Assembly: GCF_900114655.1 (NCBI RefSeq)
Contig: NZ_FOTT01000002.1
Span: 1-64,000, forward strand
Reading direction: 5' to 3'
DNA length: 64,000 bases
Source of the DNA: Candidatus Frackibacter sp. WG13
GTDB lineage: Bacteria > Bacillota > Halanaerobiia > Halobacteroidales > Acetohalobiaceae
Both the position numbers and the translations under genes were made by a program. The stretch's first letter is position 1; each line of letters opens with the position of its first letter. Shown here in pieces: positions 28,373 to 50,542 of the stretch. The notes beneath the pieces were generated by a model. That model searched no databases, was not told the origin of the DNA, and was given only the letters and a program-made list of their open reading frames with translations.

Positions 28373-29368
28373 ATGAAATTTATGGAAGAGTTGAAAAGAA
28401 GCAGCTTACTTAAGGGAGGCATTCTGGGAATTAGCCTTCTTATGATTATATTATTCTCTTCGTCTATAGTTTTAGCTGATGATGAGGCTCCGGTCAAACA
28501 CTTATTTAACCTTAAAAAGACTGAAGATGGAACATTAAATTATCCAGCAGATGTTAAAGTTGCTCCTAATGGTGAAATTTTTGTTCTTGATACTGGGAAT
28601 AATCAAATAGTAGTTTATGACCAAGAAGGTAACTATTTGCGTCAGTTTGGTGATGGTGGAGATGATGAAGGTGAAGTAGAATATCCTCTCTCCTTTGCTA
28701 TTAATAAGAAGAATCAGATCTACATTGCTGATACTGAGAACCATCGGGTTGAGGTTTTAGATAAGAATGGCAACTATCTCTTTGAATTTGGCATAGAAGG
28801 AGAAGAAGGAGATAAAGAAGGACAGTTTAATCGACCTATTGGGATAACGATTGGTAATGATGGTTTAGTATATGTGTCAGACCTTAAAAATCATAGAATC
28901 CAGGTCTTTAATCAAAAAGGTGAGTTCATTACGATTATCGGTGAATTTGGTCGTAGAGATGGACAGTTTAAGTATCCGGTGGGCTTAATAACTGCCCCGG
29001 AGTCTAATGATTTATATGTAGTCGATACTTTAAACTTCAGGATTCAAATCTTTGAGGAGGACGGAAAAAAAGAATGGGAGTTTGATGATACATTCGGTCG
29101 AGTAGGAAATCGAGAAGGAAGCTTTGCCCGACCAAAAGATATAGCTATTGATGAAGAAGAACGTATCTATGTTACTGATAGTTTTCTAGGGTTAGTACAG
29201 GTGCTTGATGATGATGGAGAGTTCTTATTCAAGATTGGTGGCGAAACTAAGAAGCCTTTATTTAAACAGGCGTTAGGAATTTATATTGATGACAAGACTA
29301 ATCGCTTGTATGTAGCTGATCGAGGAAATAATCAGATTCAAGTCTATAAAATTACAGATTTAAAATAA
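28373..29368 (+). CDS. secreted NHL-repeat beta-propeller protein 1
   Basis: A 331-aa protein with a signal or anchor helix (about 14-35, ending SSIVLA), then about six NHL repeats of the pattern YPADVKVAPNGEIFVLDT. Such six-bladed propellers act as binding scaffolds; no catalytic residues are evident. It is followed 27 bases later by a tetrahaem cytochrome gene, and NHL genes at 36910 and 41077 are also next to cytochrome genes. The pairing suggests a role in assembling or anchoring the cytochromes outside the cytoplasmic membrane. The ribosome-binding site is AAAGGGG. Confidence 0.88.
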   Translation: MKFMEELKRSSLLKGGILGISLLMIILFSSSIVLADDEAPVKHLFNLKKTEDGTLNYPADVKVAPNGEIFVLDTGNNQIVVYDQEGNYLRQFGDGGDDEGEVEYPLSFAINKKNQIYIADTENHRVEVLDKNGNYLFEFGIEGEEGDKEGQFNRPIGITIGNDGLVYVSDLKNHRIQVFNQKGEFITIIGEFGRRDGQFKYPVGLITAPESNDLYVVDTLNFRIQIFEEDGKKEWEFDDTFGRVGNREGSFARPKDIAIDEEERIYVTDSFLGLVQVLDDDGEFLFKIGGETKKPLFKQALGIYIDDKTNRLYVADRGNNQIQVYKITDLK

Positions 29369-29395
29369 TTTCTTAGAAAGGAGGGGAATAAGATT

Positions 29396-29863
29396 ATGAA
29401 GAAGTGGATAGTAATTCTTACATTGAGTATGCTTTTGGCAATAATATTAGGGGGACAAGTTTTAGCTGCTCAGCCTAAGTCTATAGGTCATCCATTAAAT
29501 GGTTGTTCAAGTTGCCACGTGCCTCACGGTGCTGGTGGAGATCGTTTATGGCCTTTTGCTCCTGAGCTACAGACACAGAAAGGAACTGAGTTATCATCGA
29601 TTACTGCTCTGTGTTACAGTTGTCATGATGGTACTATTACTAATAAGGGTAAACATTTCTTTGAAAAAGATGGAAGTACACACCCGATTGGAATAAAACC
29701 ATCTGAGAACGTTACTATTCCTGAAGGTTTTTCTCTTGGTGCAGACGGGAAAGTAACTTGTGCAACCTGCCATAATCCGCATAGCTCTAGTACAGAAAGT
29801 TATTTGCGGGTATCTAACAAGAATGGTAAATTATGTTTATCATGTCACCAGAATAAAGGTTAG
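29396..29863 (+). CDS. small tetrahaem c-type cytochrome, paralogue of the one at 16286
   Basis: 155 aa with a signal peptide (ending GGQVLA) and four haem motifs: CSSCH, CYSCH, CATCH, CLSCH. Sequence and spacing follow the protein at 16286 closely (both have HPLNGCSSCH and SYLRVSNK near the ends). It lies in a likely two-gene unit with the NHL protein before it, and a strong terminator follows. It is probably a periplasmic or surface electron carrier. Confidence 0.92.
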   Translation: MKKWIVILTLSMLLAIILGGQVLAAQPKSIGHPLNGCSSCHVPHGAGGDRLWPFAPELQTQKGTELSSITALCYSCHDGTITNKGKHFFEKDGSTHPIGIKPSENVTIPEGFSLGADGKVTCATCHNPHSSSTESYLRVSNKNGKLCLSCHQNKG

Positions 29864-29943
29864 ACAGAAATGGTATAGAAAAAATAGTGATTAAAAGGGA
29901 TTAGTAAGGCGATATATTTTATTTTGATAAGTATAATTATTTT

Positions 29944-29990
29944 GAGGAATAAGTGACTATTTTAACAAAGTAGTCACTCATTCCTCTTCT
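29944..29990 (+). terminator. terminator after the NHL/tetrahaem pair
   Basis: GAGGAATAAGTGACTA (29944-29959) pairs with TAGTCACTCATTCCTC (29971-29986), one mismatch, followed by TTCTTTATTTT. Confidence 0.85.
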
Positions 29991-30133
29991 TTATTTTCAC
30001 AAGACTAATTTTTGTTATTAAAGATACTTATATGGAGTTAAATGAATCTTATAGATAGATTAGCAAATAATTGCAGGAAATATCGAAAAAATGACGAATT
30101 TTATAAGTAAGTGGAAGAAAGGAGGGAGGAAAA

Positions 30134-31882
30134 ATGAATAATAGCAATTTAGCTTTGCATATTGATAATGATTTACAGATTCCAATTGATATTTCTGATT
30201 ATGGGCGCAAATGGTGCTTCATAATACTTACTTTAGGTCTGTTCTTAATTTTAAATGGAACTCAAACTACTGACATTTATTTCTGGTCATTACTTATAGT
30301 ACTAGTAGCTATTCATTTTTTAGCTTATCATTTTATGCAGAGTTCAGCAGAAAATTTATTTTATCATAGTTTGTGGTATTTTTCATTTGTAGTAGATTTA
30401 GCTATTGTAGGACTCTTAATTACATATTCAGGTGGTTTAGAGAGTCTGTTTGTAATTGCTTATGGGATTTTGATGGTAAGTGTTGGGGTTGTTCGTCCTA
30501 GAATGAAAGAAGTAGTGTTGAGTAGTATCTTTTCTCATTTAGGTTATGTAGCTACACTTTTCTTATATTATGGTAGTTTTAATTTTTATACAACAGATAC
30601 TTTTTGGACCCAATGCTTATTGATTGCTGGGATATTCATTAATACTGTTTTGATTACTCGTGTTATTCAACAGCAGCAACACAAATTAATTGAAGCAAAA
30701 GAAGAGGTTGAGGAATTGGCATATGATTTGAAAGAAGCTAATGATGAATTAGAAAGACTTTCGTATACTGATGAAGTAACACAGGTCTATAATCATCGTT
30801 ATTTTTATGAAAGATTAGAAAAAGAAGTCAATCGTTCTGAGCGTTATAATTACCCTCTTTCTTTGTTGATGCTAGATGTAGATAATTTTAAAACTTATAA
30901 TGATACTTTTGGGCACCCTGCTGGTGATAAAGTGTTAAGGCAGATTGGTGAAATTTTAAATAATAATGTTCGTAAACATGATGTAGTAGCAAGATATGGT
31001 GGAGATGAATTTTCTATTATCTTAATTGATACAGGCCAAGAAAAAGCTTTAAGTATTGCTGAGCGAATTAGAGAATCAATTGCACACTACAAATTTGAAG
31101 AGGAACATCAATTGAAGAGAAATCTAACAGTTTCAATTGGAGTTGCGATTTATCCCGAAAATGCTGATTCACTTAATGAACTTGTAGATAAGGCAGATCG
31201 GGCTCTATATGAGGTTAAGAGTCAAGGTAGAAATGATGTTAAGGCCTACTATTCGTTGCTTCAAGATTTAAAAGCAGAGATAGGAAGCAAAGAATCACAA
31301 GCTATGGAAGAGATAGAGTCTTTAATTTCTATTATAAATAATCGCGATTCGTATACTTATGCTCATGCAGAACGGGTAGGAAAGTTGGCAGCTACTTTAG
31401 GAGAGACACTTGGGCTATCAGATCAAGAGATTAAGTCTTTAAAGTATGCAGCATTCTTACATGACTTAGGGAAGATTGAAGTTGATGCTGAAATATTAAA
31501 TAAGTCTGGCGATTTGAATGAAGAAGAGCAAGAAGCGATTCGAGAGATTCCGGTTCATAGTAAGCAGATAATTGAACAAGTAGATTTAAGAGAAGTAATC
31601 TCAACGGTACTATATCATCGCGAGAACTATGATGGGTCAGGTTATCCATATGGACTATCTCAGAATCAAATCCCGCTGTTAGCTAGAATCTTATCATTAG
31701 TAGATAGTTTTGATGCTATGCTTTCAGCTCGTCCTTATCGAGATCCATTAACTTTGGAGGAAGCCCGAGAAGAATTGATGCAAGCTAGTGGAAAACAGTT
31801 TGATCCGGAATTAGTCGATTCGTTTTTAAATTTAGTCTTTAAGGAAGGAGACTTATCTGACTATCGAAATAAGGTAGAGTGA
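30134..31882 (+). CDS. membrane GGDEF/HD-GYP protein, intact diguanylate cyclase motif
   Basis: 582 aa: about six N-terminal transmembrane helices (about 25-180), a short coiled coil, a GGDEF domain and an HD-GYP domain. The cyclase signature RYGGDEFS is intact and an RxxD inhibitory site (RKHD) precedes it, so c-di-GMP synthesis with product feedback is likely. The HD-GYP part keeps HDLGK and GSGYP, but the metal-binding HHE reads HRE (YHRENYDGSGYP), a change expected to weaken hydrolysis. The next gene is a paralogue with the opposite pattern. ATG 30134 is preceded by AAAGGAGGGAGG. It sits inside the cytochrome locus, whose genes carry c-di-GMP riboswitches. Confidence 0.92.
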   Translation: MNNSNLALHIDNDLQIPIDISDYGRKWCFIILTLGLFLILNGTQTTDIYFWSLLIVLVAIHFLAYHFMQSSAENLFYHSLWYFSFVVDLAIVGLLITYSGGLESLFVIAYGILMVSVGVVRPRMKEVVLSSIFSHLGYVATLFLYYGSFNFYTTDTFWTQCLLIAGIFINTVLITRVIQQQQHKLIEAKEEVEELAYDLKEANDELERLSYTDEVTQVYNHRYFYERLEKEVNRSERYNYPLSLLMLDVDNFKTYNDTFGHPAGDKVLRQIGEILNNNVRKHDVVARYGGDEFSIILIDTGQEKALSIAERIRESIAHYKFEEEHQLKRNLTVSIGVAIYPENADSLNELVDKADRALYEVKSQGRNDVKAYYSLLQDLKAEIGSKESQAMEEIESLISIINNRDSYTYAHAERVGKLAATLGETLGLSDQEIKSLKYAAFLHDLGKIEVDAEILNKSGDLNEEEQEAIREIPVHSKQIIEQVDLREVISTVLYHRENYDGSGYPYGLSQNQIPLLARILSLVDSFDAMLSARPYRDPLTLEEAREELMQASGKQFDPELVDSFLNLVFKEGDLSDYRNKVE

Positions 31883-31899
31883 ATAAGGAGGTGATAGCA

Positions 31900-33597
31900 T
31901 TGTTGCGATATTGCAAACAAAGATTACAAGAGATAATTAATCATCAATTTAATATAAGTTATTTACAGTTCAAATCGCTCTTTTTAGTGCTTAATCTTAT
32001 GCTTTTTGTAGCTTTATTAGGGGAAGAGCTGCAGGCGGGAATTGTAAAAGGGTTATTGATAATATTAGGGTTAAATATTATAGTTGGGATTTATTACTAC
32101 TTTAGTCAAGAAGAAGAGAATCAAGTGGCACAGGTGTTAGCAGCAATTTTGGATTTATCTTTTATTTCACTTTTAGTCTATCATTCTGGAGGGTTAGAAA
32201 GTCCGTTTTTGTTAGCATATATTATATTATTAGCACGGATAGGGATTAAGCGTCAAGAACTTTGGCAAGTAATTTTAATTGGATTAACAGGGCATTTGAT
32301 TTATGTTATAACCTTATATTTGCATTATAATAGATTAGAATTTTATTTTACGATGAAGTTTTGGATTGAGTGTCTATTATTTGCCGGAGTACTTTTTGGA
32401 TTAGTTATAGTAGTTAGAATGATAGATAGTCAGCGAAAAAGCTTAGAAAAGAGAAGTCAAAAATTACAGGAACGTTCTATTACCGATGTAGTAACAGGGT
32501 TATATAATTTTAGATATTTTCATCGTCGATTAGAAGAAGAGCTTAATTATGCTCAAGCAGGAAGTTATTCTTTAACTCTAATTATGATTGATCTAGATAA
32601 TTTTAAAGAGTATAATCGTCATGTAGGTGCTGAACAAGGCGACCAAGCTCTATACCAGGTAGGACAAATATTGAAGCAAGTCACTAGAGATAATGATGTT
32701 GTGACTAGATTGAATAGTGATGAATTTGCTGTTATTATGATAGATGCTAGTAAAGAGCTAGCTAAGGAAACTTCAATTAAGATTAAGGATGCAATTCGCG
32801 AATATTCATTTGTTGGTGAGGAGGAGTTAGCTCAAGGGGTCTTAACTGCTTCATTGGGGTTAGCTACTTATTCAGATTATATAGAAACCCCACAAGAGTT
32901 AATTAATAATGCCGATGAAGCTTTATATAAAGTTAAGTTATCTCATAAGAATGGAATCCAAGTCTATAATTCTATGTTTGCTGAGTTGAAGAGAGAGTTA
33001 GAGGGGACTGATAGTAGTTTACTTAATACTTTGCGTACTTTATTAACGGTTGTTAATGCTCGCGATCGCTATACATACGGCCACTCTGAACGGGTAATGA
33101 AGTATGCTATGGCTATCGGTGAAGAGTTAGGGATAAGTACGGAGCTATTACGAATATTAAAGTATGCAGCTTTCTTACATGATGTCGGTAAAATAGAAGT
33201 TAGTCGTGATATATTGAATAAAAAGGGCAAGCTTAATAAGAGTGAATGGGATTTGATTAAGCAGCATACTATCTTTGGTGTCAATATAGTTGAACCTTTA
33301 GATGATTTAGACGAGATTGTGCCAGCAATTATGCATCACCATGAACGATATGATGGAACCGGTTATCCTTATGGACTAGAGGGAAAAGATATTCCTTTAT
33401 TAGCTCGTATTTTAACGGTTGCAGATAGTTTTGATGCGATGACTAGCAATCGACCTTATCGTTCAGCTATGGGACAAGAAGAGGCAGTCAATGAACTAAA
33501 AGCTAATAAAGGAGGGCAGTTTGATCCTAAAATAGTAGACGCGTTTACTCAAGTAGTAGGTCAGGTCTTTAAAAAGAGTGAATTTCATGCTTCGTAA
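31900..33597 (+). CDS. membrane GGDEF/HD-GYP protein, intact phosphodiesterase motif
   Basis: About 565 aa with the same layout as its upstream neighbour (membrane helices, GGDEF, HD-GYP). Here the GGDEF motif is degenerate (RLNSDEFA), so cyclase activity is unlikely, although an RxxD site (RDND) remains and could sense c-di-GMP. The HD-GYP motifs are canonical: HDVGK and HHHERYDGTGYP, consistent with c-di-GMP hydrolysis. The start is TTG 31900 after GGAGGTGAT; a GTG at 31879 overlaps the end of the previous gene and precedes the ribosome-binding site. The two genes are translationally close and surely arose by duplication. Confidence 0.91.
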   Translation: MLRYCKQRLQEIINHQFNISYLQFKSLFLVLNLMLFVALLGEELQAGIVKGLLIILGLNIIVGIYYYFSQEEENQVAQVLAAILDLSFISLLVYHSGGLESPFLLAYIILLARIGIKRQELWQVILIGLTGHLIYVITLYLHYNRLEFYFTMKFWIECLLFAGVLFGLVIVVRMIDSQRKSLEKRSQKLQERSITDVVTGLYNFRYFHRRLEEELNYAQAGSYSLTLIMIDLDNFKEYNRHVGAEQGDQALYQVGQILKQVTRDNDVVTRLNSDEFAVIMIDASKELAKETSIKIKDAIREYSFVGEEELAQGVLTASLGLATYSDYIETPQELINNADEALYKVKLSHKNGIQVYNSMFAELKRELEGTDSSLLNTLRTLLTVVNARDRYTYGHSERVMKYAMAIGEELGISTELLRILKYAAFLHDVGKIEVSRDILNKKGKLNKSEWDLIKQHTIFGVNIVEPLDDLDEIVPAIMHHHERYDGTGYPYGLEGKDIPLLARILTVADSFDAMTSNRPYRSAMGQEEAVNELKANKGGQFDPKIVDAFTQVVGQVFKKSEFHAS

Positions 33598-33703
33598 TTA
33601 AAAGATTCATTTAGATAAATATATAAAGGGAAAAGTGGAAATTTATTGAATATATATAATATGATAGTTACAGAAATTTATTAATTTAAAGAGGGTGATT
33701 AAC

Positions 33704-34414
33704 TTGAAGAAGTTTAAGTTACTATTATTAATGGGACTAGTAGTCGTAGTTGGTTTGGGTCTATTTTCACAATCTGTTATGGCTGGGGTTAATGGTTCTA
33801 AACGGTGTATGAATTGTCATCGAGAAGAGACAGTAAGTTGGAAAGAATCAGCACATGCGAATAAACAGATTAAGTGTTTATCATGTCATAAGCGGAATAT
33901 GTCTTTGCGGAAGTCAAAGGAGAAGCTTTGTGTTCAATGCCATACTGCAGGAGATATTAAACCAGGGGAATCAATTGGAATGCCACAAAAAGAGATGAAT
34001 GCTGGTGTTGGTGGTTTTGGAGTCGAAAAAGCAATGCCGGAGGGTATGTATTCAGTGGGAGTAACCTGTATCGATTGTCATATGCCTGATGGTAAGAGGC
34101 ATACCTTCAAAATTGTAATGCCTAAGCAAGCTAAGGAAGGTAAGACTGATGCTTGTATCTCATGTCATACAATCTTCCAACCAGAAATTATGCAGAACGC
34201 AGTAGATGATTGGCAGAATAATACTATCAATTTGCTTGCGAAAGTTAAAAAGCTTTTAAAGAAGAAAGAAGAATTTAAAGACCATGAGCTATATAAAAAA
34301 GCAGAAATCAATTATCGCTTCGTTAAGAAAGATGGTAGTAAAGGGGCCCATAATCCTGATTATGCGCAGAAGTTATTAAGAATCTCTGTTAGGATGTTAG
34401 AAAGTCTTAGATGA
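33704..34414 (+). CDS. pentahaem cytochrome c with NrfA-like C-terminus
   Basis: 236 aa, signal peptide (ending QSVMAG) and five haem motifs: CMNCH, CLSCH, CVQCH, CIDCH, CISCH. The segment GVTCIDCHMPDGKRHTF and the helical tail FVKKDGSKGAHNPDYAQKLL resemble the last haems and C-terminal helix of cytochrome c nitrite reductase (NrfA). It is half the NrfA length and has no CXXCK catalytic haem, so it is probably an electron-transfer relative rather than a nitrite reductase. The start is TTG 33704, after GAGGGTGAT. The next gene is a longer paralogue. Confidence 0.85.
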   Translation: MKKFKLLLLMGLVVVVGLGLFSQSVMAGVNGSKRCMNCHREETVSWKESAHANKQIKCLSCHKRNMSLRKSKEKLCVQCHTAGDIKPGESIGMPQKEMNAGVGGFGVEKAMPEGMYSVGVTCIDCHMPDGKRHTFKIVMPKQAKEGKTDACISCHTIFQPEIMQNAVDDWQNNTINLLAKVKKLLKKKEEFKDHELYKKAEINYRFVKKDGSKGAHNPDYAQKLLRISVRMLESLR

Positions 34415-34438: not shown

Positions 34439-35380
34439 ATGTATAGATATCGGTTGGGGAAGGGACTTTTATTAATTACATTAGTTTTGGGTCTAGTCTT
34501 TATAAATACAGGAGTAACCAAAGGAATAGATAAAGCTAAAATTGGTGATGTGAGCAAATGTCTTGAATGTCATGAGGAGGAAGCTGCTGAGTGGGAGAAA
34601 GGGCCTCATGCTAAGTCATTAGACCTCTTAAAAGGAATAGACAAGGTAAAGAAGGAGTGTTTATCCTGTCACTCTACTGATTATCAGTTAAGTAATAAGA
34701 AGAATGAATTAACAGTTAGTAAAGTTAAGTATGGAGTTAATTGCTTAAGCTGTCATAATGATGATCCAGAGATAGGAAAGTCAAGAGATAAGCATCTTGC
34801 TGACTATAAAAAATTGCGTCGTTCTGAAAAAGAGACTTGTGGAGAATGTCATAGTGCCCAACTAGCTAATGGAGTAGCTAAGCCAGGGCAAGAAGTTAAT
34901 CATGCGCAACAGAATTTGTATTATGGTTTTGGTGGAATTAATGTAGAGGATCGCCCAGCTGAGATGGTTAGAGCGGGAGTAACATGTAGTAGCTGTCATA
35001 TGCTCCCAAAAGAGAAAGGGGCAAAGAGAGCCCATACATTTAGATCGATACTTCCGGGAGAAGGAGAACCGAATTCCTGTATTAATAGTGGGTGTCATGC
35101 TAACTTCGGTAGCACTATGTTTGCAGGCATGTTAGAAATGAGAGTAATGGAAGTTGAGGATATGTTAGCAACTGTTAAAGAAAAATTAAAAGCCAAAAGA
35201 GATTATAAGAATACAGAAGCATACAAGGTAGCTAAAACTAATTACCTGATGGTTAAAGAAGATAAAAGTCAAGGACTACATAATCTCTATTATACTCGTA
35301 GTCTCTTATGGGAAGCAGAAGATCAACTAGATAGTATTAAGGTAAAAGAAGCTAAAAAAGAGGCAAGTCAGCAAGAATAA
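34439..35380 (+). CDS. hexahaem cytochrome c, NrfA-related
   Basis: 313 aa with an N-terminal signal or anchor helix and six haem motifs: CLECH, CLSCH, CLSCH, CGECH, CSSCH and an expanded CINSGCH (CX4CH). The end VKEDKSQGLHNLYYTRSLL matches the tail of the protein encoded just before, and both resemble the NrfA C-terminal helix. It also lacks CXXCK. It starts 25 bases after the pentahaem gene (AGGAGGGAAGG ribosome-binding site); together they form a two-gene unit that ends before the riboswitch at 35608. The substrate is unknown. Confidence 0.85.
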   Translation: MYRYRLGKGLLLITLVLGLVFINTGVTKGIDKAKIGDVSKCLECHEEEAAEWEKGPHAKSLDLLKGIDKVKKECLSCHSTDYQLSNKKNELTVSKVKYGVNCLSCHNDDPEIGKSRDKHLADYKKLRRSEKETCGECHSAQLANGVAKPGQEVNHAQQNLYYGFGGINVEDRPAEMVRAGVTCSSCHMLPKEKGAKRAHTFRSILPGEGEPNSCINSGCHANFGSTMFAGMLEMRVMEVEDMLATVKEKLKAKRDYKNTEAYKVAKTNYLMVKEDKSQGLHNLYYTRSLLWEAEDQLDSIKVKEAKKEASQQE

Positions 35381-35607
35381 AAGTTCAATATAATGGGATA
35401 AAATGTAGAAAGAAGAAAGTCATAAAAAATTCACAAATTATGAAGGAGATCGGTTGGGTAGTGTAGAATATACTATATGAGACTAAATTAGTTATTAAAT
35501 GAAGAAAATAACTTATAATTTGTGAGGGATAATACAAAATGTGAAACAAGTAAGAATTATTAAGGTGAAAAAAAGATTAAATATTATAATATTTAATATA
35601 TATTTAC

Positions 35608-35673
35608 GGAAGCGATGATTTATGGTCTGCAAATGGTCACTTAGACTGTAGGGAGCGAGTAGTGAACCCACCC
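35608..35673 (+). ncRNA. c-di-GMP-II riboswitch aptamer (copy A)
   Basis: The 66 bases align with the c-di-GMP-II aptamer I recall from C. acetobutylicum, nearly without gaps: GGAA, AUGAU, AAAUGGUCACUU and AGUAGUGAACC are kept. Pairing is kept by covariation: UCACU/AGUGA here where the reference has GCACU/AGUGC. UAUGGUCU (35621-35628) pairs with AGACUGUA (35643-35650), as CUAUAAUC pairs with GAUUAUAG in copy B. It lies in the 380-base gap before the 12-haem cytochrome gene, followed by a terminator whose 5' arm overlaps the aptamer end. Bases 35381-35607 hold no recognised gene. Confidence 0.9.
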
Positions 35674-35735
35674 AACTTTCTTACTTGTTTTTGTTATTCT
35701 TAAATGAGATTAGATGTTGGGTATTTTATTTTATA
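35670..35735 (+). terminator. riboswitch-controlled terminator (copy A)
   Basis: ACCCAAC (35670-35676) pairs with GTTGGGT (35716-35722), followed by ATTTTATTTTATA. Four bases of the 5' arm belong to the 3' end of the aptamer. Ligand binding would hold these bases and disfavour the terminator, so an ON switch is inferred. Confidence 0.75.
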
Positions 35736-35760: not shown

Positions 35761-36846
35761 ATGGCCTTTAAAAGAAAGAAGCTGTTTTTAGCAATGATAA
35801 CATTGTTAATATTATCACTAACATTGTCTATAACTGTACTATCTAAAGAAGCAACTGATAATAAAGGTGTCAAGAATGCTGATGAGAAAGTTAAAAAGGA
35901 GTCTAAGAAGATTGTAGGTTCGACTAAGTGTAAGCTATGTCATATTGGGAGGTACTTTTCATGGACAAAGACCACTCACTATCGTGGCTTTAGAAGTTCT
36001 AATCTGCCTTCGGACTTTAGTGAATGTGAAAGCTGTCATGGCGGTGGCTCTAAGCATGTTGATGCGTTAGGTAATGAGGATATTTTGGTTCCTAATACTT
36101 TTAAGGAAGCTAATCAATCTTGTGGAAAAGAGTGTCACTTTAATGTGCAGAAGTTAAGAAAAGGAATTCAGATCCCGATCGTTAATCCACAGGTTTGGAA
36201 GAATAGTAATCACGGACAGGCAAAGCTAAGTTGTGTTAAGTGTCATAGTCCACATAAGAATAAAGAGGATATTAATTTACAGGATAATGATTTCTGTCTT
36301 AATTGTCATAATGATGAAGGGCCAGGGACAGTTCTTTCTAAGATTGAAGAACATGAATCAGGAGAAGACTGTTTAACCTGCCACAATCCACATGGTGAAT
36401 CGCTAAAGACTAATGAATTTACTAGAGAGTATATCCATTATCCAGTTGCTAAGAATAGATGTTTCGATTGTCATAGTACTCATATGGCATCTGGGGGACA
36501 ATTAACTAAAAATCGTAATAACAAGCTCTGTTATGACTGCCATAATACTAAGAAGTATGTCTATCCAGACACTATCCATGCAGAAGCGGAAGGGATAGAA
36601 GGTGAGGGATTATGTATTAATTGCCATGAGCCACATAGTTCTAATTATAAGCCACTATTGAAACGAGAAGCAACGAAGATGTGTCGCTCATGTCATTATA
36701 ATAAACGGCCACATCACTTTTTGGCTATAGCACAGACGAAAGGTAAGGTAGGGTGTATTGACTGTCATAATCCACATGGTGAAGCTAATAAGGCATTCTT
36801 AAAGATGAAGCCTGATAATATCTGTGCGAACTGTCATGATAAGTAA
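35761..36846 (+). CDS. dodecahaem periplasmic cytochrome, DmsE/MtrA-like
   Basis: 361 aa with a signal helix (about 9-28) and twelve haem motifs by my count: eleven CXXCH and one CX3CH (CGKECH). The first block, STKCKLCHIGRYFSWTKTTH, followed by evenly spaced CXXCH motifs with distal histidines (NPHGE, SPHKN, EPHSS), is the pattern of MtrA/DmsE-type molecular wires that plug an outer-membrane barrel. A barrel gene lies 2 kb downstream in the same direction. ATG 35761 with GGAGGGG. It is the first gene after c-di-GMP riboswitch copy A, so its expression is probably set by c-di-GMP. Confidence 0.88.
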   Translation: MAFKRKKLFLAMITLLILSLTLSITVLSKEATDNKGVKNADEKVKKESKKIVGSTKCKLCHIGRYFSWTKTTHYRGFRSSNLPSDFSECESCHGGGSKHVDALGNEDILVPNTFKEANQSCGKECHFNVQKLRKGIQIPIVNPQVWKNSNHGQAKLSCVKCHSPHKNKEDINLQDNDFCLNCHNDEGPGTVLSKIEEHESGEDCLTCHNPHGESLKTNEFTREYIHYPVAKNRCFDCHSTHMASGGQLTKNRNNKLCYDCHNTKKYVYPDTIHAEAEGIEGEGLCINCHEPHSSNYKPLLKREATKMCRSCHYNKRPHHFLAIAQTKGKVGCIDCHNPHGEANKAFLKMKPDNICANCHDK

Positions 36847-37941: not shown

Positions 37942-38016
37942 AAATCAAATTGTTACTCAGGATTAACCTGAGTATTATAAACAAATAAAAATTTTATTAA
38001 GAAGGGGGTGAAAATA

Positions 38017-38622: not shown

Positions 38623-38627
38623 ATATA

Positions 38628-42353: not shown

Positions 42354-44426
42354 ATGAAACTTGAAAAAAGTTTTATAATCTGTTTTTTAATAGGGTTAGT
42401 TATTGTATTTACTATTCCGGTTATGGCATTAGGAGGAAGTAAAGTAGAGAATACAGTACATAATTTATCTTCTAGTGGTCAAGGGGATATAACGTCTTCC
42501 GAAAATAGAGTATGTGTATTCTGTCACACACCGCATAATTCAAATCCGGCTAAGCCATTGTGGAATCATAGCTTATCAGGTTCTACATATACAGCTTATA
42601 ATAGTACCACTTTAGATACTACTAGTACTTCTATGAAATCTTTAACAGGTACGACGACTAAGCTTTGTTTAAGTTGTCATGATGGTACGATAGCGATTGG
42701 TAACTTAGCAAATATGAATATTGCTATGAGTGATAATAGTGGGACAGAAGGACCAAAACTAAATAATGATAAGCTTATTTCTAGTGCTAATTTAGGAATT
42801 AATTTAGGCAATGATCATCCGGTGCTTTTTAAGCCAGATGGTAGTGACTTAGAAATAAATACAAGCTCTACTCTTTATGATTCCGGAGGTTATTTACAGT
42901 GTACTTCTTGTCATGAGCCGCATGATAATACTTATGGCAACTTTTTAGTGAAAGATAATACCAATGGTGCTTTATGTACTACATGTCATACTAAGAATGG
43001 ATGGTCGTCAGGTAACGCTCACTATGATGTTGGTATGACCTGTCAAGATTGCCATACACCACATAATGCTAATGAGCCAGTAAGATTGAAAGCAGCTTCC
43101 GAAGAAAAGTTATGTTATCAGTGTCATGATGATACCGGTAGTCGTTATGGGGAATGGACTAGTGTTCCTGATATTGGTAGTGTAATAGATAATGCTAGTG
43201 GAGGTTCTGTCCATCCAATTGAAGACGCTAATTTATCTAATAGACATGATGCTTTAGAAAATAATACTGATGGAAAAGTTAGTTCAAGTAATAAGCATTC
43301 TGAGTGTTCAGATTGCCATGATCCGCATCAGGTTACAGCTAGTAATCCTTTAAATGGTGTACCAGGTGTTGATTTAAGTGGAACTGCAGTTAGTTCCATA
43401 TCAAACAGCTATGAATTATGTTATAAATGTCATCAAGGAACTAATGGGTTACAGGATAGTACCAATTCTGTAAAATATGTCTTCGATAATAGAAATTATA
43501 CCCACGGTAATGGAACGAATGTTGAACGCTGCAATAAATGTCATGGTGGTAATAGTGAAGATGTAACTGGAGAAGCAGTTCACGGTTCTAATGCACCGGG
43601 ATTATTAACACAATCCCAGTTTGTTGATGTAGCTAATCCAGGTCAGAATGATCTCTGTGTAAGTTGTCATGAAAATGGTGGTAATGGACCACCGCAAATT
43701 TATTTCGTTGATGCAACAGGTTCACAACATAATACTAAGTGTACAGCTTGTCATGGTGATAGTGTTAACTATGGTAGTGGGATAAATGTAGGAAGTGAAA
43801 CCGGAGTACCGCATGGTTCAAATGTAAGTCCATTATTAAAGAATACACAGCCGGCTTTATGTCTTGACTCTGGGTGCCATAGCAGTACAGACCAAAGTAA
43901 CAGTGTAACTACTAGATACCCTAGTGGATATGATATTCCCAATAGTGGTCACCCGTATAATATTACTAATAATGGTAGTAATAATCCACAGGATGGTTCC
44001 GGTTATGGGAGTGCTTCAAAAAGGCCAATAACTAAGACCTCGGGCTGTCAATCTTGTCATACAGAGCCTGATGTGCCTAGTGATGCACCGCACGCTAGTG
44101 ATAATTATGGTATATTAATGGTGGATATTAATAGTCAAGGGGTCTGTATTGAATGTCATGAACCACCAAGTGATAATGGAGTACACAGAGAACATGCTCA
44201 TGAAAGTGCAGGTGACTGTTATTACTGTCACGTTAAAGGACCACATGATGATACAGGATATGGAGACCCATATAAATTAATTAAAGTAGATGGTACATAT
44301 CTTGATTCATTTAACGATGCTACTATAGGCAGTACGGGTTCAGGAACAGGTGGGAGTAGTGGTTATAGGGAGAATGATTGTTCATCTTCATGGTCTGGTT
44401 CAGGAAACTGTGGTGGAGAACATTAA
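42354..44426 (+). CDS. large multihaem cytochrome c with 15 haem motifs
   Basis: 690 aa from ATG 42354, which follows GGAGGAGGG (the in-frame ATG at 42315 lacks a site). Signal peptide, then 14 CXXCH motifs (CVFCH first, CYYCH last) and one CX4CH (CLDSGCH). The N-terminal third resembles the small tetrahaem proteins of the locus; the later haems are spaced by Gly/Asn/Ser-rich loops with HGSN and HNTKC elements. The end is Gly/Ser-rich and carries two cysteines without a haem motif. Size and low-complexity loops suit an exposed terminal reductase or nanowire-type cytochrome; there is no lipobox. It is followed by a terminator and resB. Confidence 0.9.
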   Translation: MKLEKSFIICFLIGLVIVFTIPVMALGGSKVENTVHNLSSSGQGDITSSENRVCVFCHTPHNSNPAKPLWNHSLSGSTYTAYNSTTLDTTSTSMKSLTGTTTKLCLSCHDGTIAIGNLANMNIAMSDNSGTEGPKLNNDKLISSANLGINLGNDHPVLFKPDGSDLEINTSSTLYDSGGYLQCTSCHEPHDNTYGNFLVKDNTNGALCTTCHTKNGWSSGNAHYDVGMTCQDCHTPHNANEPVRLKAASEEKLCYQCHDDTGSRYGEWTSVPDIGSVIDNASGGSVHPIEDANLSNRHDALENNTDGKVSSSNKHSECSDCHDPHQVTASNPLNGVPGVDLSGTAVSSISNSYELCYKCHQGTNGLQDSTNSVKYVFDNRNYTHGNGTNVERCNKCHGGNSEDVTGEAVHGSNAPGLLTQSQFVDVANPGQNDLCVSCHENGGNGPPQIYFVDATGSQHNTKCTACHGDSVNYGSGINVGSETGVPHGSNVSPLLKNTQPALCLDSGCHSSTDQSNSVTTRYPSGYDIPNSGHPYNITNNGSNNPQDGSGYGSASKRPITKTSGCQSCHTEPDVPSDAPHASDNYGILMVDINSQGVCIECHEPPSDNGVHREHAHESAGDCYYCHVKGPHDDTGYGDPYKLIKVDGTYLDSFNDATIGSTGSGTGGSSGYRENDCSSSWSGSGNCGGEH

Positions 44427-44438: not shown

Positions 44439-44472
44439 AAGGCTAGAGAATTATTTCTCTGGCCTTTTCTTG
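44439..44472 (+). terminator. terminator after the 15-haem gene
   Basis: AAGGCTAGAGAA pairs with TTCTCTGGCCTT around TTAT, followed by TTCTTGATTTTT. Confidence 0.85.
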
Positions 44473-44604: not shown

Positions 44605-46011
44605 ATGATAAAGCAAATAACTGATAAGGTTTGGAAACTTGCCAAATCAAGAAAACTAGCTATTTGGTTAATAATTATATTAACTTTAGCCTCTACTATT
44701 GGAATATTAGTACCACAGAAAAGATTAGATTCAAAGGAATATCAAGAATGGATGCTTAATAATCCTGGATTAATAAAGATAATTAATACGTTTAAGCTAA
44801 ATCATTTATTCCATTCTCGTTGGTTTATCGGTTTAGGAATTCTCTTTTTAATTAATCTTACTGCTTGTACCATTGAACAGGTAAAATTGGCTATTAGGAG
44901 ATGGAAAAACTTTGAGCAGTTAAATTTTGCAATTAAGGATCTAAATAAAACGAAGGAATATCAAGTTAATAGTAAATTAAGTGATACTAAATTAAAAATG
45001 GAAAATGTATTAAATAAAAAGAGATATAAATTGAATCTTAAAAACGATGGTTTAATTGCTACTAAATATAAATGGGGGTTATGGAGTAGTGTTATCTGTC
45101 ATATTGGCTTAATTATAATTATTATTGCTGCTTTAAGTAGTATGATGTTTAAAATGTATGGATATGATCCGATTGCCGAAGGACAAGTATTTACAGAAAG
45201 ACATGAAGATTATTTTTATATTGAAGAGGCTCCTTTCTTTAATGAAGATCATTTAGGTTTTAAAGCAACAGTGAAAGATCAGAGAATTATATATGATGGT
45301 AATAAGTTTGACAAACTCGAAACTGATTTGGCAATTATCAAGAATGGGCGGATGATAAAAGAGCAGACTGTTCATAAGGGACATCCTTTAATTTATAAAG
45401 GAGTCTATTTTTATTATGATAAGCATGGCTATGTTCCTCTATTTACCTTATTAAATAAAGATAAAGATCCAATTTATCGTTCTTTTACTTTTTTCGATAC
45501 TATAGAAGGTAAGAATGGAGAAGAATTTAATATGGAGTATCAGTTTCCTCAGACTAATCTAAAGATTAAAGCGACCTTTTATCCTGACTTTGCTATTAAA
45601 GATGGTGAATATATTACAAAAACAGAGTTAATAAAGAATCCGGTTGTTGATTTAGAAGTATACAAAAGTGAGAAAAAGATTTATGATGGTTTGTTAAAAC
45701 AAGACAAGCCAATTCAATTAGGAGATAAGACGCTGACTATGGGGGAAGTAAGAGGCTGGACTGGCTTTGTGATCTCACGTGATCCAGGAAACACACCAAT
45801 TTTCATTGGTTTTATAGTTGCTTTAATTGGTATGATTATGATTTATTTGGTGAACCCACGAAGATTGAAAGTAGAGTTTGAAGAAGTAGAAAATGGCACT
45901 AAAATTTATATTTATGGTAAGCAAGATAAATATAAAGCAGATTTTGAATTAAAAATTAAGGGATTAGTTAAAGAATTATACACAGACTGCCACAGACAAG
46001 CCACAGACTAA
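44605..46011 (+). CDS. resB: cytochrome c maturation protein ResB (System II)
   Basis: 468 aa. Three hydrophobic helices near the N-terminus (about 17-35, 70-88, 155-178), a large external domain and a last helix near 395-415 give the ResB/Ccs1 layout. The short motif LIIILTLASTIGILVPQK after helix one is typical. With ResC it forms the haem exporter and ligase that attaches haem to CXXCH cysteines outside the cytoplasmic membrane. Its place after the cytochrome genes fits their heavy haem demand. ATG 44605 after AAGGTGGTGGG; resC follows after 190 bases. Confidence 0.92.
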   Translation: MIKQITDKVWKLAKSRKLAIWLIIILTLASTIGILVPQKRLDSKEYQEWMLNNPGLIKIINTFKLNHLFHSRWFIGLGILFLINLTACTIEQVKLAIRRWKNFEQLNFAIKDLNKTKEYQVNSKLSDTKLKMENVLNKKRYKLNLKNDGLIATKYKWGLWSSVICHIGLIIIIIAALSSMMFKMYGYDPIAEGQVFTERHEDYFYIEEAPFFNEDHLGFKATVKDQRIIYDGNKFDKLETDLAIIKNGRMIKEQTVHKGHPLIYKGVYFYYDKHGYVPLFTLLNKDKDPIYRSFTFFDTIEGKNGEEFNMEYQFPQTNLKIKATFYPDFAIKDGEYITKTELIKNPVVDLEVYKSEKKIYDGLLKQDKPIQLGDKTLTMGEVRGWTGFVISRDPGNTPIFIGFIVALIGMIMIYLVNPRRLKVEFEEVENGTKIYIYGKQDKYKADFELKIKGLVKELYTDCHRQATD

Positions 46012-46201: not shown

Positions 46202-47044
46202 GTGATTAAAATTTTAAAGCTTGAAATAATCTTATTCTGGATAGCTGTTGGTTTTTATGCCATTAGTACGTTCATGTATGTTACAGCCTTAACATTCAAA
46301 AAAGAAAAGTTCTTTCCCAAAGCTACTCTTTTAGTAAAGATAGGTTTAGTTGTTCATTCTATTGCTTTAATTGCTCGCTGGATTGAAGTAGGCCATGGTC
46401 CTTATATGACTCCTTATGAAGTCTTATCCAGTAATGCTTGGATGTCAACTGTAGCTTTTCTTTTGCTACAATATAGAAATAAAAAATTAAGGGTGCTAGG
46501 AACATTTGTAATGCCGGCTGTCTTTATCATGGTAGGTATTGCTGTAATGTCTTCAGCAGAAGCAGGAAATGTACCAAGTAGCTTTTTACTTTATTGGTTG
46601 ATAGTTCATGTTTTATTTGCTAAGTTAGCATATGGTTCTAGTATGATTTCTGGGGGTTTAGCTGGATTATACTTATACAAAGAGCGAAGTGATAGATTAA
46701 ATAAGAGTAATTATCTATTAGATAAGTTGCCATCGATTGAACAATTAGATGTTCTAAGCTATAAGTTTGGAGCTTTTGCATTTATTATGTTAGGAGTTAT
46801 GATAGCCTCCGGTGCTGTGTGGGCTAATAAAGCTTGGGGGCGTTACTGGGGCTGGGATCCGGTAGAGACATGGGCTTTTATTTCATGGTTGATCTATGCT
46901 TTATACCTCCACTTAAGGGTTATGATAGGTTGGCGTGGTAAGAAGGCAGCTTGGTTAGCGGTATTTTCTTTTCTAATGGTAGTCTTCTCTTATTTTGGGA
47001 TTACATTTATTTACCCTACAGTTCATGAAAACTTAACTGTTTAA
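46202..47044 (+). CDS. resC: cytochrome c maturation protein ResC/CcsA (System II)
   Basis: 280 aa, about eight transmembrane helices, with the haem-handling WWD-type motif WGRYWGWDPVETWAF. It pairs with ResB. The GTG at 46202 lies inside the GAGGTGAT ribosome-binding site, and there is no other ATG, GTG or TTG start nearby in frame. Spacing suggests real initiation at ATT 46211, giving a protein beginning LKLEIILFW. The coordinates given use the GTG. Only one ResBC pair is in the window. Confidence 0.92.
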   Translation: MIKILKLEIILFWIAVGFYAISTFMYVTALTFKKEKFFPKATLLVKIGLVVHSIALIARWIEVGHGPYMTPYEVLSSNAWMSTVAFLLLQYRNKKLRVLGTFVMPAVFIMVGIAVMSSAEAGNVPSSFLLYWLIVHVLFAKLAYGSSMISGGLAGLYLYKERSDRLNKSNYLLDKLPSIEQLDVLSYKFGAFAFIMLGVMIASGAVWANKAWGRYWGWDPVETWAFISWLIYALYLHLRVMIGWRGKKAAWLAVFSFLMVVFSYFGITFIYPTVHENLTV

Positions 47045-47117: not shown

Positions 47118-48554
47118 ATGGTAGAAAAGATACTGTTATTAACACCGCCTTATCATACTGAAATTATAGAGATTACTGGTAAGTGGCCACCCTCAAGTCT
47201 AGCATATTTGGCAGGAGAAATTAGAAAGGCTAATTTTGAAGTAGAAATATATGACATAATGACTAAGGATATAGGATTAGAAGAAATCAAAGGCTATATA
47301 GAAGAGTATTCACCGGATGTAGTAATGATTGGCGCCTTTACTGCTACGATTAATGCAGCGATAGATACTTTAGCTAAGGTAAAGGAAGTAGATAATCAGA
47401 TAGTAACTTGTTTAGGTGGAGTTCATCCTACTTTCTGTTATGATGAAGTCTTAAACGAAAATCAAGAAGCGATTGATTATATAATTAGAGGAGAAGGAGA
47501 AATTACTGCTAGAGAGCTTGTGGTAGCTTTAAGAGATGGTGCAGATACTTCAGAAGTAAATGGACTAGCCTATTATCAAGATGAAGAGATTATAATTACT
47601 CCTAAACGAGAGTTGATTGCTGATTTAGACTCATTAGATCCAGCTTGGGATCTCTTTGATTGGGAAGAGTACTATTATAAAATTACCGAATCTAGATTAG
47701 CGGTTATTAGTTCATCCCGAGGTTGTGATCATACTTGCAGTTTTTGCTCACAGCATAAATTCTGGGAGGAGAAGTATCGGGCACGAAGCCCAGAGAACTT
47801 AGTAGAAGAAATAAAATATTTACAGCAAGAGTTTGGTGTAGAAATGTGTATGTTTGGTGATGAGTATCCTACCAAGGACCGAGAAAGGTGGGAGAGGATA
47901 CTCAATTTATTAATTGAAAAGGACTTAGGCATGTATTTCACTATGGAAACAAGGGTTTCTGATATAATTCGGGATAAAGATATCTTAGATAAATATCGTG
48001 AAGCTGGTTTTGTCCATATTTATGTAGGAATAGAGTCTACTAAAGAAGAATTATTAGAGCAGTTTAATAAAGAGATTACTACTGATGAATCGAAAGAGGC
48101 ATTAAGATTATTAAATGACGTAGGAATTATAACGGAATGTTCATTTATCTTAGGTGATATAAAGGAGACTAAGGAGTCGATTCAACATACAGTAGAGTTA
48201 GCTTTAGAATATAATCCTGATTTAGCTCACTTTTTATTATTAACACCGTGGCCTTATGCTGATATATATGATGAAGTGGCTGATTACGTAGTAGAAGAGG
48301 ACTATTCTAAATATCATTTGGTTCATCCAATTATTGAACCAAATGATATGAGCAGAGATGAACTATTAGAAGAAGTGTATAACTGTTTTAAAACTTTTTA
48401 TATGCAGAAAATGAAGGATTATTTACAGATGGAAGATTCTTTTAAGAAAAAATATATGATGCGCTCGATTAAAATATTATTAGAAGACTCGTTTTTGACG
48501 GAGAAATTAGGAGTGGCTAATATGTCTAAGATGATGAAAATGATGAATTTATAG
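47118..48554 (+). CDS. B12-binding-domain radical SAM protein, function unknown
   Basis: 478 aa from ATG 47118 (after TAGGAGAG; an upstream ATG at 47088 lacks a site). Residues 1-140 form a B12-binding Rossmann domain (KILLLTPPYHTE, GGVHPTF, IRGEGE). The radical SAM core has Cys203, Cys207 and Cys210 in CDHTCSFC, then FGDEYP. The layout matches the BchE/magnesium-protoporphyrin cyclase-like group, which covers many reactions including methylations and tetrapyrrole chemistry. It lies 73 bases after resC and may belong to that unit, so a haem- or lipid-related role is possible but unproved. A terminator follows. Confidence 0.88.
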   Translation: MVEKILLLTPPYHTEIIEITGKWPPSSLAYLAGEIRKANFEVEIYDIMTKDIGLEEIKGYIEEYSPDVVMIGAFTATINAAIDTLAKVKEVDNQIVTCLGGVHPTFCYDEVLNENQEAIDYIIRGEGEITARELVVALRDGADTSEVNGLAYYQDEEIIITPKRELIADLDSLDPAWDLFDWEEYYYKITESRLAVISSSRGCDHTCSFCSQHKFWEEKYRARSPENLVEEIKYLQQEFGVEMCMFGDEYPTKDRERWERILNLLIEKDLGMYFTMETRVSDIIRDKDILDKYREAGFVHIYVGIESTKEELLEQFNKEITTDESKEALRLLNDVGIITECSFILGDIKETKESIQHTVELALEYNPDLAHFLLLTPWPYADIYDEVADYVVEEDYSKYHLVHPIIEPNDMSRDELLEEVYNCFKTFYMQKMKDYLQMEDSFKKKYMMRSIKILLEDSFLTEKLGVANMSKMMKMMNL

Positions 48555-48710: not shown

Positions 48711-48712
48711 GG

Positions 48713-49432
48713 TTATTTAATATGACAAGTAGTACAAAGTTGACTATTTGTGTTTGGTTTAATTAAGAATGGTTCATACTGTGGATCATGAACGTTATGG
48801 CAAGAAGTACATTCTAACTTACCATTACTTAGCATATCATCAGCAATTGTACCAGTTATTCCACTGGAAGCAGATGGGTCTCTTAATTCACCGTCAGCTG
48901 TAGCTAATGCGCTATCATAAGTGAATGATACTGGATGGTCATTACTCAAATCTTGACTTAAAAATGCTTCGGTTACTCCTAAATCTTTATTATTATGACA
49001 ACTATTACAACTATCATTAGTTGTGTCAGTACTCATTCTTTTATGTTCACTTGCTTGTGTATAGTCTGCTGGTTTATTTAAAACAGAGTCAACAGCGATT
49101 GTACCATCATGACAACTTAAACAGAGTAAAGATTGAGTGCTAATTGAAGTAGTAGAACTATCTAAGGTATTACTATCATAAACTGTATAGGCATTAGCTG
49201 ATGGTAAAGGACGATTCCACAAGGGACCATCAGAACTACTATTATGTGGAACATGACAATAAGCACAAGGAGATTTATAATCGTTGAATTTTACTCCAGC
49301 GTGTTTATATTGATTCCAACTAGCAGTTAAATCATGTTTAGAATTCTGAATTGTACCAGCTTGAACCGTAAAATTTATTGCTAATAATAATCCTATAACT
49401 ATTACTAGTGTTTTAGGTTCCATTTTAACCAT
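48713..49432 (-). CDS. pentahaem cytochrome c (minus-strand pair, distal)
   Basis: 239 aa from ATG 49432, which follows AAAGGAGGG; the upstream in-frame ATG (49456) overlaps that site. Signal peptide (ending FTVQA), then haem motifs CAYCH, CLSCH, CNSCH, CTSCH and CTTCH. It is strongly similar along its length to the protein at 49595-50320 (shared NRPLPSANAY and LECTSCH segments), so the two are a tandem duplicate. It is probably transcribed from the riboswitch-controlled promoter upstream of that gene, 162 bases away. Confidence 0.91.
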   Translation of the reverse strand: MVKMEPKTLVIVIGLLLAINFTVQAGTIQNSKHDLTASWNQYKHAGVKFNDYKSPCAYCHVPHNSSSDGPLWNRPLPSANAYTVYDSNTLDSSTTSISTQSLLCLSCHDGTIAVDSVLNKPADYTQASEHKRMSTDTTNDSCNSCHNNKDLGVTEAFLSQDLSNDHPVSFTYDSALATADGELRDPSASSGITGTIADDMLSNGKLECTSCHNVHDPQYEPFLIKPNTNSQLCTTCHIK

Positions 49433-49594
49433 ATAATTTCCCTCCTTTCTATTCAAATTAAATAGTTTGACTTGTTAGTAATTAAAGAGTCATATTGTTT
49501 AGTTTAGAGGTGATTAGTGTTAAAACATTAACTATGTATATTTCTATAAAATAAATTAGTTACCTTCGATGTTATAGCAAAAGAGGAAAAAAGA

Positions 49595-50320
49595 TTATTT
49601 GTCATGACAAGTTACACATAAATTCTGCCCTTCTTTAATTAAGAAGTTACCATATTGCGGGTCATGGACATCATGACAAGAAGTACATTCCAATTGACCA
49701 TTGCTTAACATATCATTTGCAATACTTCCACCTAGTCCGCTAGGAGCAGAAGGATCTTTCAAACCACCATCAGCAGTAGCTAAAGTGCTATCATATGTAA
49801 AAGAAACTGGATGGTCATTACTTAGGTCTTGTGAAAGAAAACTACCTAATTTACGACCAATTCCTCCATAATGGCAGTTACCACAGTTTTCAGAAGTTCG
49901 CTGAGCTCGCATGTGGTCTCCATAATTTGATATTTTTTCCCATGGAGAATTAAGTAGTGTGTCAACAGCGATTGTACCATCATGACAACTTAAACAGAGC
50001 AAAGACTTAGTATTAATTGAAGCAGTAGAACTGTCTAAGGTTTCACTATCATATAAGTTATAAGCATTAGCTGATGGTAAAGGGCGATTCCAAAGTGGTC
50101 CTCCATTTTGATTACTATTGTGGGGGATATGACAATAAACACACACTTGCTCATAGTCTTCAATAACAAAAAAGGTTTCTGAATGGGATCCTTTCTTACT
50201 TAAAGCTGATAAGTCATGTCTAGAACCTACAATTGTTCCAGCTTGACTTAAAGAACTAGTAGCAAGCATAAAAACCATTATAGTTAATATTAAGTATATA
50301 CTTTTTTTGATTTTCATCAT
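49595..50320 (-). CDS. pentahaem cytochrome c (minus-strand pair, riboswitch-proximal)
   Basis: 241 aa with a signal peptide (ending SLSQAG) and five haem motifs: CVYCH, CLSCH, CGNCH, CTSCH, CVTCH. The first two haems are separated by the NRPLPSANAY segment also present in its tandem copy. The ribosome-binding site AGGAGGTAAA precedes two ATGs, 50320 and 50317. Upstream on the same strand lie c-di-GMP-II riboswitch copy B and its terminator, so this pair is predicted to answer to c-di-GMP together with the operon at 35761. Likely periplasmic electron carrier. Confidence 0.92.
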   Translation of the reverse strand: MMKIKKSIYLILTIMVFMLATSSLSQAGTIVGSRHDLSALSKKGSHSETFFVIEDYEQVCVYCHIPHNSNQNGGPLWNRPLPSANAYNLYDSETLDSSTASINTKSLLCLSCHDGTIAVDTLLNSPWEKISNYGDHMRAQRTSENCGNCHYGGIGRKLGSFLSQDLSNDHPVSFTYDSTLATADGGLKDPSAPSGLGGSIANDMLSNGQLECTSCHDVHDPQYGNFLIKEGQNLCVTCHDK

Positions 50321-50430
50321 TTTACCTCCTTTCCATATTATGTGTTATGATAGTGATTATATCTATAAGAATAATTATGACCTTATACCTATAACATTAT
50401 TTATAAAATAAGGTTAAAAATTACACATAA

Positions 50431-50479
50431 TAAAATAAAAATACCCAACATTCTTTCAATATTAATGAGAAAGTTGGGT
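50431..50479 (-). terminator. riboswitch-controlled terminator (copy B)
   Basis: On the minus strand ACCCAACTTTC pairs with GAAAG-AAT-GTTGGGT, followed by ATTTTTATTTTA. As in copy A, the 5' arm overlaps the last bases of the aptamer. Confidence 0.78.
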
Positions 50480-50542
50480 GGGTTCACTACTTGCTCCCTA
50501 TAATCAAAGTGACCAAATTGCAGATTATAGTTCATCGCTTCC
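50476..50542 (-). ncRNA. c-di-GMP-II riboswitch aptamer (copy B)
   Basis: Read on the minus strand, the segment GGAAGCGAUGA through AACCCACCC follows copy A almost base for base, and the same c-di-GMP-II reference aptamer. CUAUAAUC/GAUUAUAG replaces UAUGGUCU/AGACUGUA, a compensated change that supports the paired structure; UCACU/AGUGA is kept. It precedes the minus-strand pentahaem pair. Two such switches in front of cytochrome genes, 15 kb apart and in opposite orientation, are unlikely to be chance. Confidence 0.9.

Follow-up and report, generated by a model that had tools for sequence, protein, structure and literature searches.

Outer-membrane electron conduits are known mainly from Proteobacteria, Desulfobacterota and a few other diderm phyla, and electron transfer in Bacillota has so far been studied in monoderm species. 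The closest described systems are MtrCAB/DmsEF of Shewanella, the Omb-Oma-OmcB/Ext clusters of Geobacter (PMC6148476, PMC4245776) and the OetABI and beta-propeller operons of Desulfobacterota (PMC10553843, PMC5539420); beta-propeller proteins stand beside large cytochromes in relatives of Geobacter and in the partners of methane oxidisers (PMC5539420), and the latter also possess a porin conduit (PMC10553843). Monoderm Bacillota encode MtrA/DmsE-like cytochromes together with NHL proteins (PMC10376724) and cytochromes without porin complexes (PMC7829351). The Halanaerobiales are lipopolysaccharide diderms (PMC5007114), and in the open-access literature we saw no description of porin-cytochrome conduits from this order or from other diderm Bacillota; a mention of Halanaerobium in a paper on a Geobacter conduit proved to be merely a reference title. 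Here we analyzed a stretch of 64,000 nt from Candidatus Frackibacter sp. WG13 (the window; NZ_FOTT01000002.1, positions 1-64,000), in which a multihaem cytochrome locus at 28373-50542 encodes, with a probability that we put at roughly 70%, an extracellular electron-transfer system of a diderm member of the Bacillota. We regard it as a genuine and new variant among porin-cytochrome/nanowire systems.

An initial annotation had listed nine multihaem genes for the locus and a tenth at 16286, in agreement with our open reading frame (ORF) and motif counts (ORF starts at 29396, 33695, 34439, 35761, 38008, 40507 and 42354 on the plus strand, and at 48713 and 49595 on the minus strand). Its hand count of 64 haem motifs was exact (61 CxxCH and three longer CX3CH or CX4CH motifs, CINSGCH, CGKECH and CLDSGCH), and Pfam/NCBIfam matches bore out its three NHL propellers, all of them secreted, and ResBC. 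When the letters of the 12-haem protein were shuffled, CxxCH occurred 0.1 times on average and twice at most. The functional unit also takes in two GGDEF/HD-GYP genes (30134-33597) and two riboswitches that the annotation had left unnamed.

The core of the locus comprises, all on the plus strand, genes for a 12-haem cytochrome (35761-36846; 11 CxxCH and CGKECH), the propeller NHL2 (36910-37941), a 4-haem cytochrome (38008-38622), a predicted outer-membrane barrel (38804-40456), the propeller NHL3 (41077-42162; PF01436, 5e-28) and a 15-haem cytochrome (42354-44426). A second 4-haem gene (40507-41064) lies between barrel and NHL3, a 20-bp perfect palindrome (38625-38668) between the first 4-haem gene and the barrel gene, and a terminator-like hairpin in the sequence (44439-44466, +) marks the operon end after the 15-haem gene. 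The 12-haem protein, annotated initially as MtrA/DmsE-like, matched 6r2q_A with an E value of 2.4e-15 as a single sequence and 1.1e-21 as a profile; we take 6r2q to be the MtrCAB complex (the chain is labelled 'cystathionine beta-synthase' in the PDB copy used), and by this comparison the protein is MtrA-related. Its best family hit, DmsE (TIGR03508; 8e-37, 127 bits, cut-off 192), makes it a relative rather than a member, and the GSU2203 family scored 126 bits at a cut-off of 325. As in MtrCAB/DmsEF, an MtrA-related multihaem protein is thus encoded beside a predicted barrel and a larger cytochrome in one direction; the window differs by 12 instead of 10 haems, a barrel outside the MtrB_PioB family, the lack of a decahaem MtrC/OmcA lipoprotein, the inserted NHL and OmcE-like proteins and the Bacillota host. 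MtrB_PioB (PF11854) gave no match above cut-off in the window genome, its relative in the same family (below) or the other diderm genomes, and the 15-haem protein no match to TIGR03507 (MtrC/OmcA). Since two defining parts tested negative, the locus falls outside the MtrCAB family. With Omb-Oma-OmcB/Ext it shares the presence of several conduit clusters per genome whose parts vary widely between copies (PMC6148476, PMC4245776), whereas family models, taken alone, indicated no homology, and the hosts listed in a passage of PMC4245776 do not include Bacillota.

The order 12-haem, NHL, 4-haem, barrel, NHL, 15-haem is the core of a conserved cassette. Preceded by a 5-haem gene, it recurs on another contig of the same genome (C10) and in a relative from another genus of the same family (G004), where the 12-haem proteins are 51 and 47% and the barrels 36 and 33% identical to those of the window. 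The homologue in the window of that first gene encodes a 5-haem cytochrome (33695-34414, +) with NapC/NrfA-like parts by domain search and an N-terminal signal or anchor, and is followed by a gene for a 6-haem cytochrome (34439-35380, +; five CxxCH and CINSGCH) that motifs and domain search place near cytochrome c554/c7. The G004 cassette also lies near counterparts of genes flanking the window copy (FtsA-like, NHL1, 4-haem). Of these, NHL1 (28373-29368, +; PF01436, 3e-45) is a secreted six-repeat propeller with orthologues in G004 and G181, and the adjoining gene (29396-29863, +) encodes a compact secreted cytochrome with four CxxCH that is distantly OmcE-like (1.5e-20 with the profile of the OmcE-like set, in two pieces) and whose orthologues adjoin NHL1 in the same two genomes; its paralogue is the tenth multihaem gene (16286-16756, +), a compact 4-haem cytochrome by its motifs and the same profile.

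Among 398 Bacillota genomes surveyed, the nearest relatives of the 12-haem protein outside the family belong to another diderm class, a small one of seven Omp85-bearing genomes, from which we compared the loci of G037, G118, G152, G181 and G231. Re-arranged cassettes are present in five of the seven, with genes for 12-haem (in one case 7-haem), NHL and 4-haem proteins and, contig permitting, for a barrel; in one genome the counterpart of the 15-haem protein has 11 haems. All 12 haem sites of the 12-haem protein align across the two classes, and alignment and tree identify the 12-haem proteins of both as orthologous. NHL1, NHL2 (orthologues in C10, G004 and G231) and NHL3 (orthologues in C10, G004, G118 and G152) each cluster with their own counterpart from the other class (support 100/99, 91/94 and 99/96), which argues that the cassette travelled or was inherited as a unit. 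Gene order in relatives, proposed as a check in the initial annotation, is accordingly conserved in G004, as in the C10 copy, and, re-arranged, in the other class. We rejected the notion that such cytochromes are a general trait of the order, as the paired-CXXCH family was confined to two of the 59 genomes of the window's class, the window genome and G004. A scan of named genomes returned eight distant loci (Bacteroidota, Ignavibacteria and one Geobacteraceae), none with the cassette. The base composition did not look foreign, with 33.6% G+C for the cassette and 34.5% outside the locus. O-antigen ligase-like (Wzy_C) and sugar transferase genes lie inside and just after the C10 cassette (L006 9774-11609, 17173-17838), and similar polysaccharide genes at that of G004 (L008 12798-13517, 18700-19803); a surface polysaccharide may go together with the wire.

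Omp85/BamA, taken as the mark of a diderm envelope, gave one match in the window genome (1.2e-54); G004 and each of the seven genomes of the other class likewise have it, and three monoderm-type carriers of related cytochromes lack it. All six diderm loci with complete sequence around the 12-haem gene contain the barrel gene, and none of eight monoderm-type loci (L098-L106 range) from Omp85-lacking Bacillota does. As the carrier loci are not independent samples, we attach no probability to this co-occurrence. The monoderm-type loci encode 10-, 12- and 17-haem cytochromes, most of them with NHL proteins. Like those of Dethiobacter (PMC10376724), they resemble the window in their MtrA/DmsE-like cytochromes with NHL proteins, sometimes accompanied by ResBC and a BchE-like protein, but they lack the barrel and have a 17-haem protein that forms a clade separate from the 12-haem proteins (support 100/100 in the tree).

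The 38804 product itself begins with a signal peptide, its only hydrophobic helix, and ends in Phe (..TTAIIRRF), the last feature being common to all six full-length barrels; the ..IIRRF terminus is shared with the G152 barrel. The three barrels of the family rank as the top three of 88 proteins for strand alternation, with z values against shuffles of 4.8-6.8 (window 4.8), compared with 3.4 for the genome's BamA and about 1 for NHL proteins. Homologues were found in C10, G004 and G231 and fall into two subfamilies, one per class, which align at their N-termini (hhalign P 3.4e-5, probability 72%). The product gave no Pfam match even at E 10 and no NCBIfam match; a hydrophobicity-based count over-called strand segments (39), and we claim no strand number. 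We speak of a predicted outer-membrane barrel of a new family. Of the conduit drawn in the initial annotation, the MtrA relation, the outer membrane indicated by Omp85, the conserved order and a secreted, Phe-ended protein with barrel-like sequence statistics were upheld; a barrel of the MtrB family and a 15-haem protein of MtrC type were not supported.

The second component of the locus is a set of cytochromes related to 7tfs, which we take to be the Geobacter OmcE filament. Four products with four (38008, 40507) or five haems (48713-49456 and 49595-50320, both on the minus strand) make up this set; its profile matches 7tfs over the full length (7.4e-57), and single members do so as well (7tfs_A, 7.2e-17 over residues 12-204 for the 38008 product and 2.1e-24 over residues 10-241 for the 49595 product). 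The four haem motifs are in register, including the N-terminal HDL His, CxxCHxPH, CxxCHDG, DHP, CxxCHxxH and the last CxxCHxK, so that by alignment the 4-5-haem proteins belong to the OmcE filament family; they would, by analogy, form filaments. AlphaFold modelling of the 38008 product from five window sequences gave no usable fold (predicted local distance difference test score, pLDDT, 33). The window differs from Geobacter OmcE in having several paralogues, two of them with a fifth haem and one fused to an 11-haem array, and riboswitch control. This fusion is the 15-haem protein, in which an OmcE-like domain (residues 1-214, 4 haems; N-terminus to 7tfs_A 9.5e-26) is followed by ten CxxCH and CLDSGCH, with residues 175-261 matching 6r2q_A (5.9e-11). 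Its start is likelier the ATG at 42354, with GGAGGAGGG in front, than 42315, and the same fusion type occurs in C10, G004 and G037. Because it consists of a whole OmcE-like domain plus eleven further haems, it is not a surface lipoprotein of the MtrC type. Conduit and filament cytochromes also occur together in OetABI operons, as do propellers beside large cytochromes in beta-propeller operons (PMC10553843, PMC5539420); judged by description, the OetABI type has 16- and 26-haem cytochromes, a peptidyl-prolyl isomerase and OmcS/OmcX-type filaments, whereas the filament candidates of the window are OmcE-like.

Both sets of genes appear to be under the control of cyclic di-GMP (c-di-GMP). The leader of the two minus-strand OmcE-like genes contains a c-di-GMP-II riboswitch with terminator (50467-50551, -) that scored 58.8 bits at an RF01786 gathering threshold of 53.5 bits and is thus a member of this family. 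The aptamer in the leader of the 12-haem gene (35599-35679, +; E 6e-8 in 23 kb) reached 48.2 bits; it is full length with a conserved core and a weak P1, and judged by its sequence is a probable, not a formal, member. Both leaders run into one type of terminator, ACCCAAC/GUUGGGU with a U tract (35670-35722, + for the 12-haem gene, from sequence and fold). The riboswitch assignment rests on the covariance model and this shared terminator, as folding of the leader RNAs was not better than that of shuffles (z -0.8 and -0.9). Since the 5' arm of the terminator overlaps the 3' end of the aptamer, an ON switch is the simplest arrangement, in which c-di-GMP would turn the genes on, though P1 pairing is poor. 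Two upstream genes encode membrane GGDEF plus HD-GYP proteins by domain matches and motifs, the first (30134-31882, +; PF00990, PF13487) with GGDEF, HD and GYP motifs intact, the second (31879-33597, +) with a degenerate GGDEF (NSDEF) and an intact HD-GYP. In the other diderm class, a c-di-GMP-I riboswitch with a strong terminator lies directly 5' of the 12-haem gene; two aptamer classes in two lineages point to convergent c-di-GMP control of surface wiring. Two further c-di-GMP-I riboswitches are found near cytochrome regions of the window genome (L092 9208-9291, -; L006 469-545, +).

Taken as an extracellular electron-transfer system, the locus could work as follows. Quinol-oxidising inner-membrane parts, for which NrfH-like 6-haem proteins and, near complex I genes, a 7-haem protein paired with cytochrome b561 are encoded elsewhere in the genome, would reduce the periplasmic 5- and 6-haem cytochromes, which in turn would pass electrons to the MtrA-like 12-haem protein. 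Lodged within the 38804 barrel, this protein would conduct them across the outer membrane as an insulated haem wire. On the cell exterior, the 15-haem protein would accept the electrons and hand them on, via its OmcE-like head, to filaments or arrays of the OmcE-like 4-5-haem proteins. The NHL propellers would probably be assembly or scaffold proteins of conduit or filament, ResBC would load haem, and c-di-GMP, partly set by the GGDEF/HD-GYP proteins of the locus, would act on the riboswitch-terminators to switch the 12-haem operon as well as the OmcE-like one, which is separate. Electrons more likely flow outward, to a mineral, a metal, an electrode or a partner. Several findings weigh against this proposal: the 12-haem protein misses the DmsE cut-off, the 15-haem protein has no lipobox, the barrel matches neither MtrB nor any solved barrel in sequence and gave no usable fold as a single sequence in AlphaFold (pLDDT 29), the riboswitch of the 12-haem operon stays below its threshold, and molybdenum (Mo) reductases of periplasmic type could use some of these cytochromes.

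The alternative that fares best keeps the same hardware and turns the current around, such that CO2 or betaine would be reduced with electrons supplied by Fe(II)/Fe(0), a cathode or a syntrophic partner. The betaine reductase encoded in the window needs reductant, the nearest described clusters of large cytochromes with beta-propellers were proposed to serve electron uptake by the partners of methane-oxidising archaea (PMC5539420), and halophilic homoacetogens of the order were enriched on H2/CO2 in a cathode study, in which Selenihalanaerobacter was dominant in H2:CO2 vials, not on the cathode (PMC6855130). The sequence fixes no direction, and cytochrome conduits are reversible; the genome also has candidates for quinol-oxidising cytochromes, which are typical of outward chains, and we consider inward flow unlikely, if worth keeping in mind.

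A good deal more doubtful is an explanation in which the sole role of the cytochromes is to respire soluble acceptors (nitrate, selenate, trimethylamine N-oxide (TMAO)) in the periplasm, and the 38804 product is an unrelated porin encoded in the operon by chance. Many multihaem proteins are periplasmic, and the genome encodes NapA-like and dimethyl sulphoxide (DMSO)/selenate-family Mo reductases; these enzymes lie outside the locus, which makes soluble oxyanion respiration a separate possibility, and the cassette contains no reductase. Moreover, barrel and 12-haem genes remain linked in the family's three cassettes as well as in another class, the loci that lack the barrel are exactly those of cells with no outer membrane, and the OmcE-like proteins belong to a surface-filament family. 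Equally improbable is a 38804 product that forms no barrel and is instead a secreted, beta-rich protein of the cell surface or the periplasm, for instance an S-layer or adhesin-like cytochrome partner, as the absence of a family match and a model, the over-counted strand segments and the indirect nature of alternation statistics would permit, given its alternation above that of the genome's own BamA, its conserved terminal Phe and the absence of the gene from monoderm-type loci.

Two Mo enzymes of this genome, a DMSO/selenate-family reductase (1012 bits, cut-off 778) and a second relative, exported by twin-arginine translocation and under cut-off (C28:5495-8572 and C4:61251-63485), are candidates for selenate or TMAO respiration. 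On contig C17 (C17:14761-17596; L092 11759-14597, -), an 8-haem MtrA-like protein (6r2q_A, 1.3e-28) adjoins a 679-residue secreted protein ending in GGF, possibly a second, different porin-cytochrome pair; as the MtrAB of the genome this pair was rejected, the barrel statistics of the 679-residue partner being weak (z 1.9). The 7-haem/b561 and 8-haem pairs recur in G004, where the homologue of the 679-residue protein is split into two ORFs (L124 8148-11221).

Downstream of the cassette, the window encodes the cytochrome c maturation proteins ResB (44605-46011, +; PF05140, 1.2e-49) and ResC/CcsB (46202-47044, +; TIGR03144, 204 bits, cut-off 188). A gene for an accessory, BchE-like B12-binding radical SAM protein (47118-48554, +; TIGR02026, 437 bits, under the cut-off of 481) adjoins them here and in a monoderm locus (L102 6276-7691); its product may take part in modifying haem or cytochromes. 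Elsewhere in the window we noted the betaine reductase selenoprotein GrdH (2870-4130) with an in-frame TGA at 3920-3922 directly followed by SECIS_4 (Rfam, 58.9 bits, 3923-3960), genes for reductase component C (7475-10206), and a methylamine/betaine utilisation set at 11354-16077 (a trimethylamine-type methyltransferase, MttB-like and under cut-off, with corrinoid-protein-, methyltransferase- and transporter-like genes). Close to the conduit, the stretch 55819-62279 encodes an EfeU/Ftr1-like iron permease (under cut-off), an FtrD-like Fe-S protein of the membrane, an ABC ATPase and two permeases, which form a set for the uptake of iron or other metals.

How cytochrome filaments are connected to the cell envelope is, to our knowledge, an open question, and the 15-haem fusion is a concrete candidate for this link. 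Tentatively, and as a possibility rather than an expectation, the locus might encode a combined conduit and nanowire machine, in which the 15-haem protein acts as a socket whose OmcE-like head caps the filament base and whose 11-haem tail docks on the barrel/12-haem wire, with c-di-GMP making both together. If this were true, filament and conduit would be joined through one protein, next to a barrel family unrelated to MtrB and in a diderm member of the Bacillota; it would be the first such coupling seen in sequence that we know of. Within a single phylum, related cytochrome-NHL loci occur in monoderms as well as diderms, with the barrel on the diderm side only, which opens a way to ask how the export of electrons changes with the loss or retention of an outer membrane.

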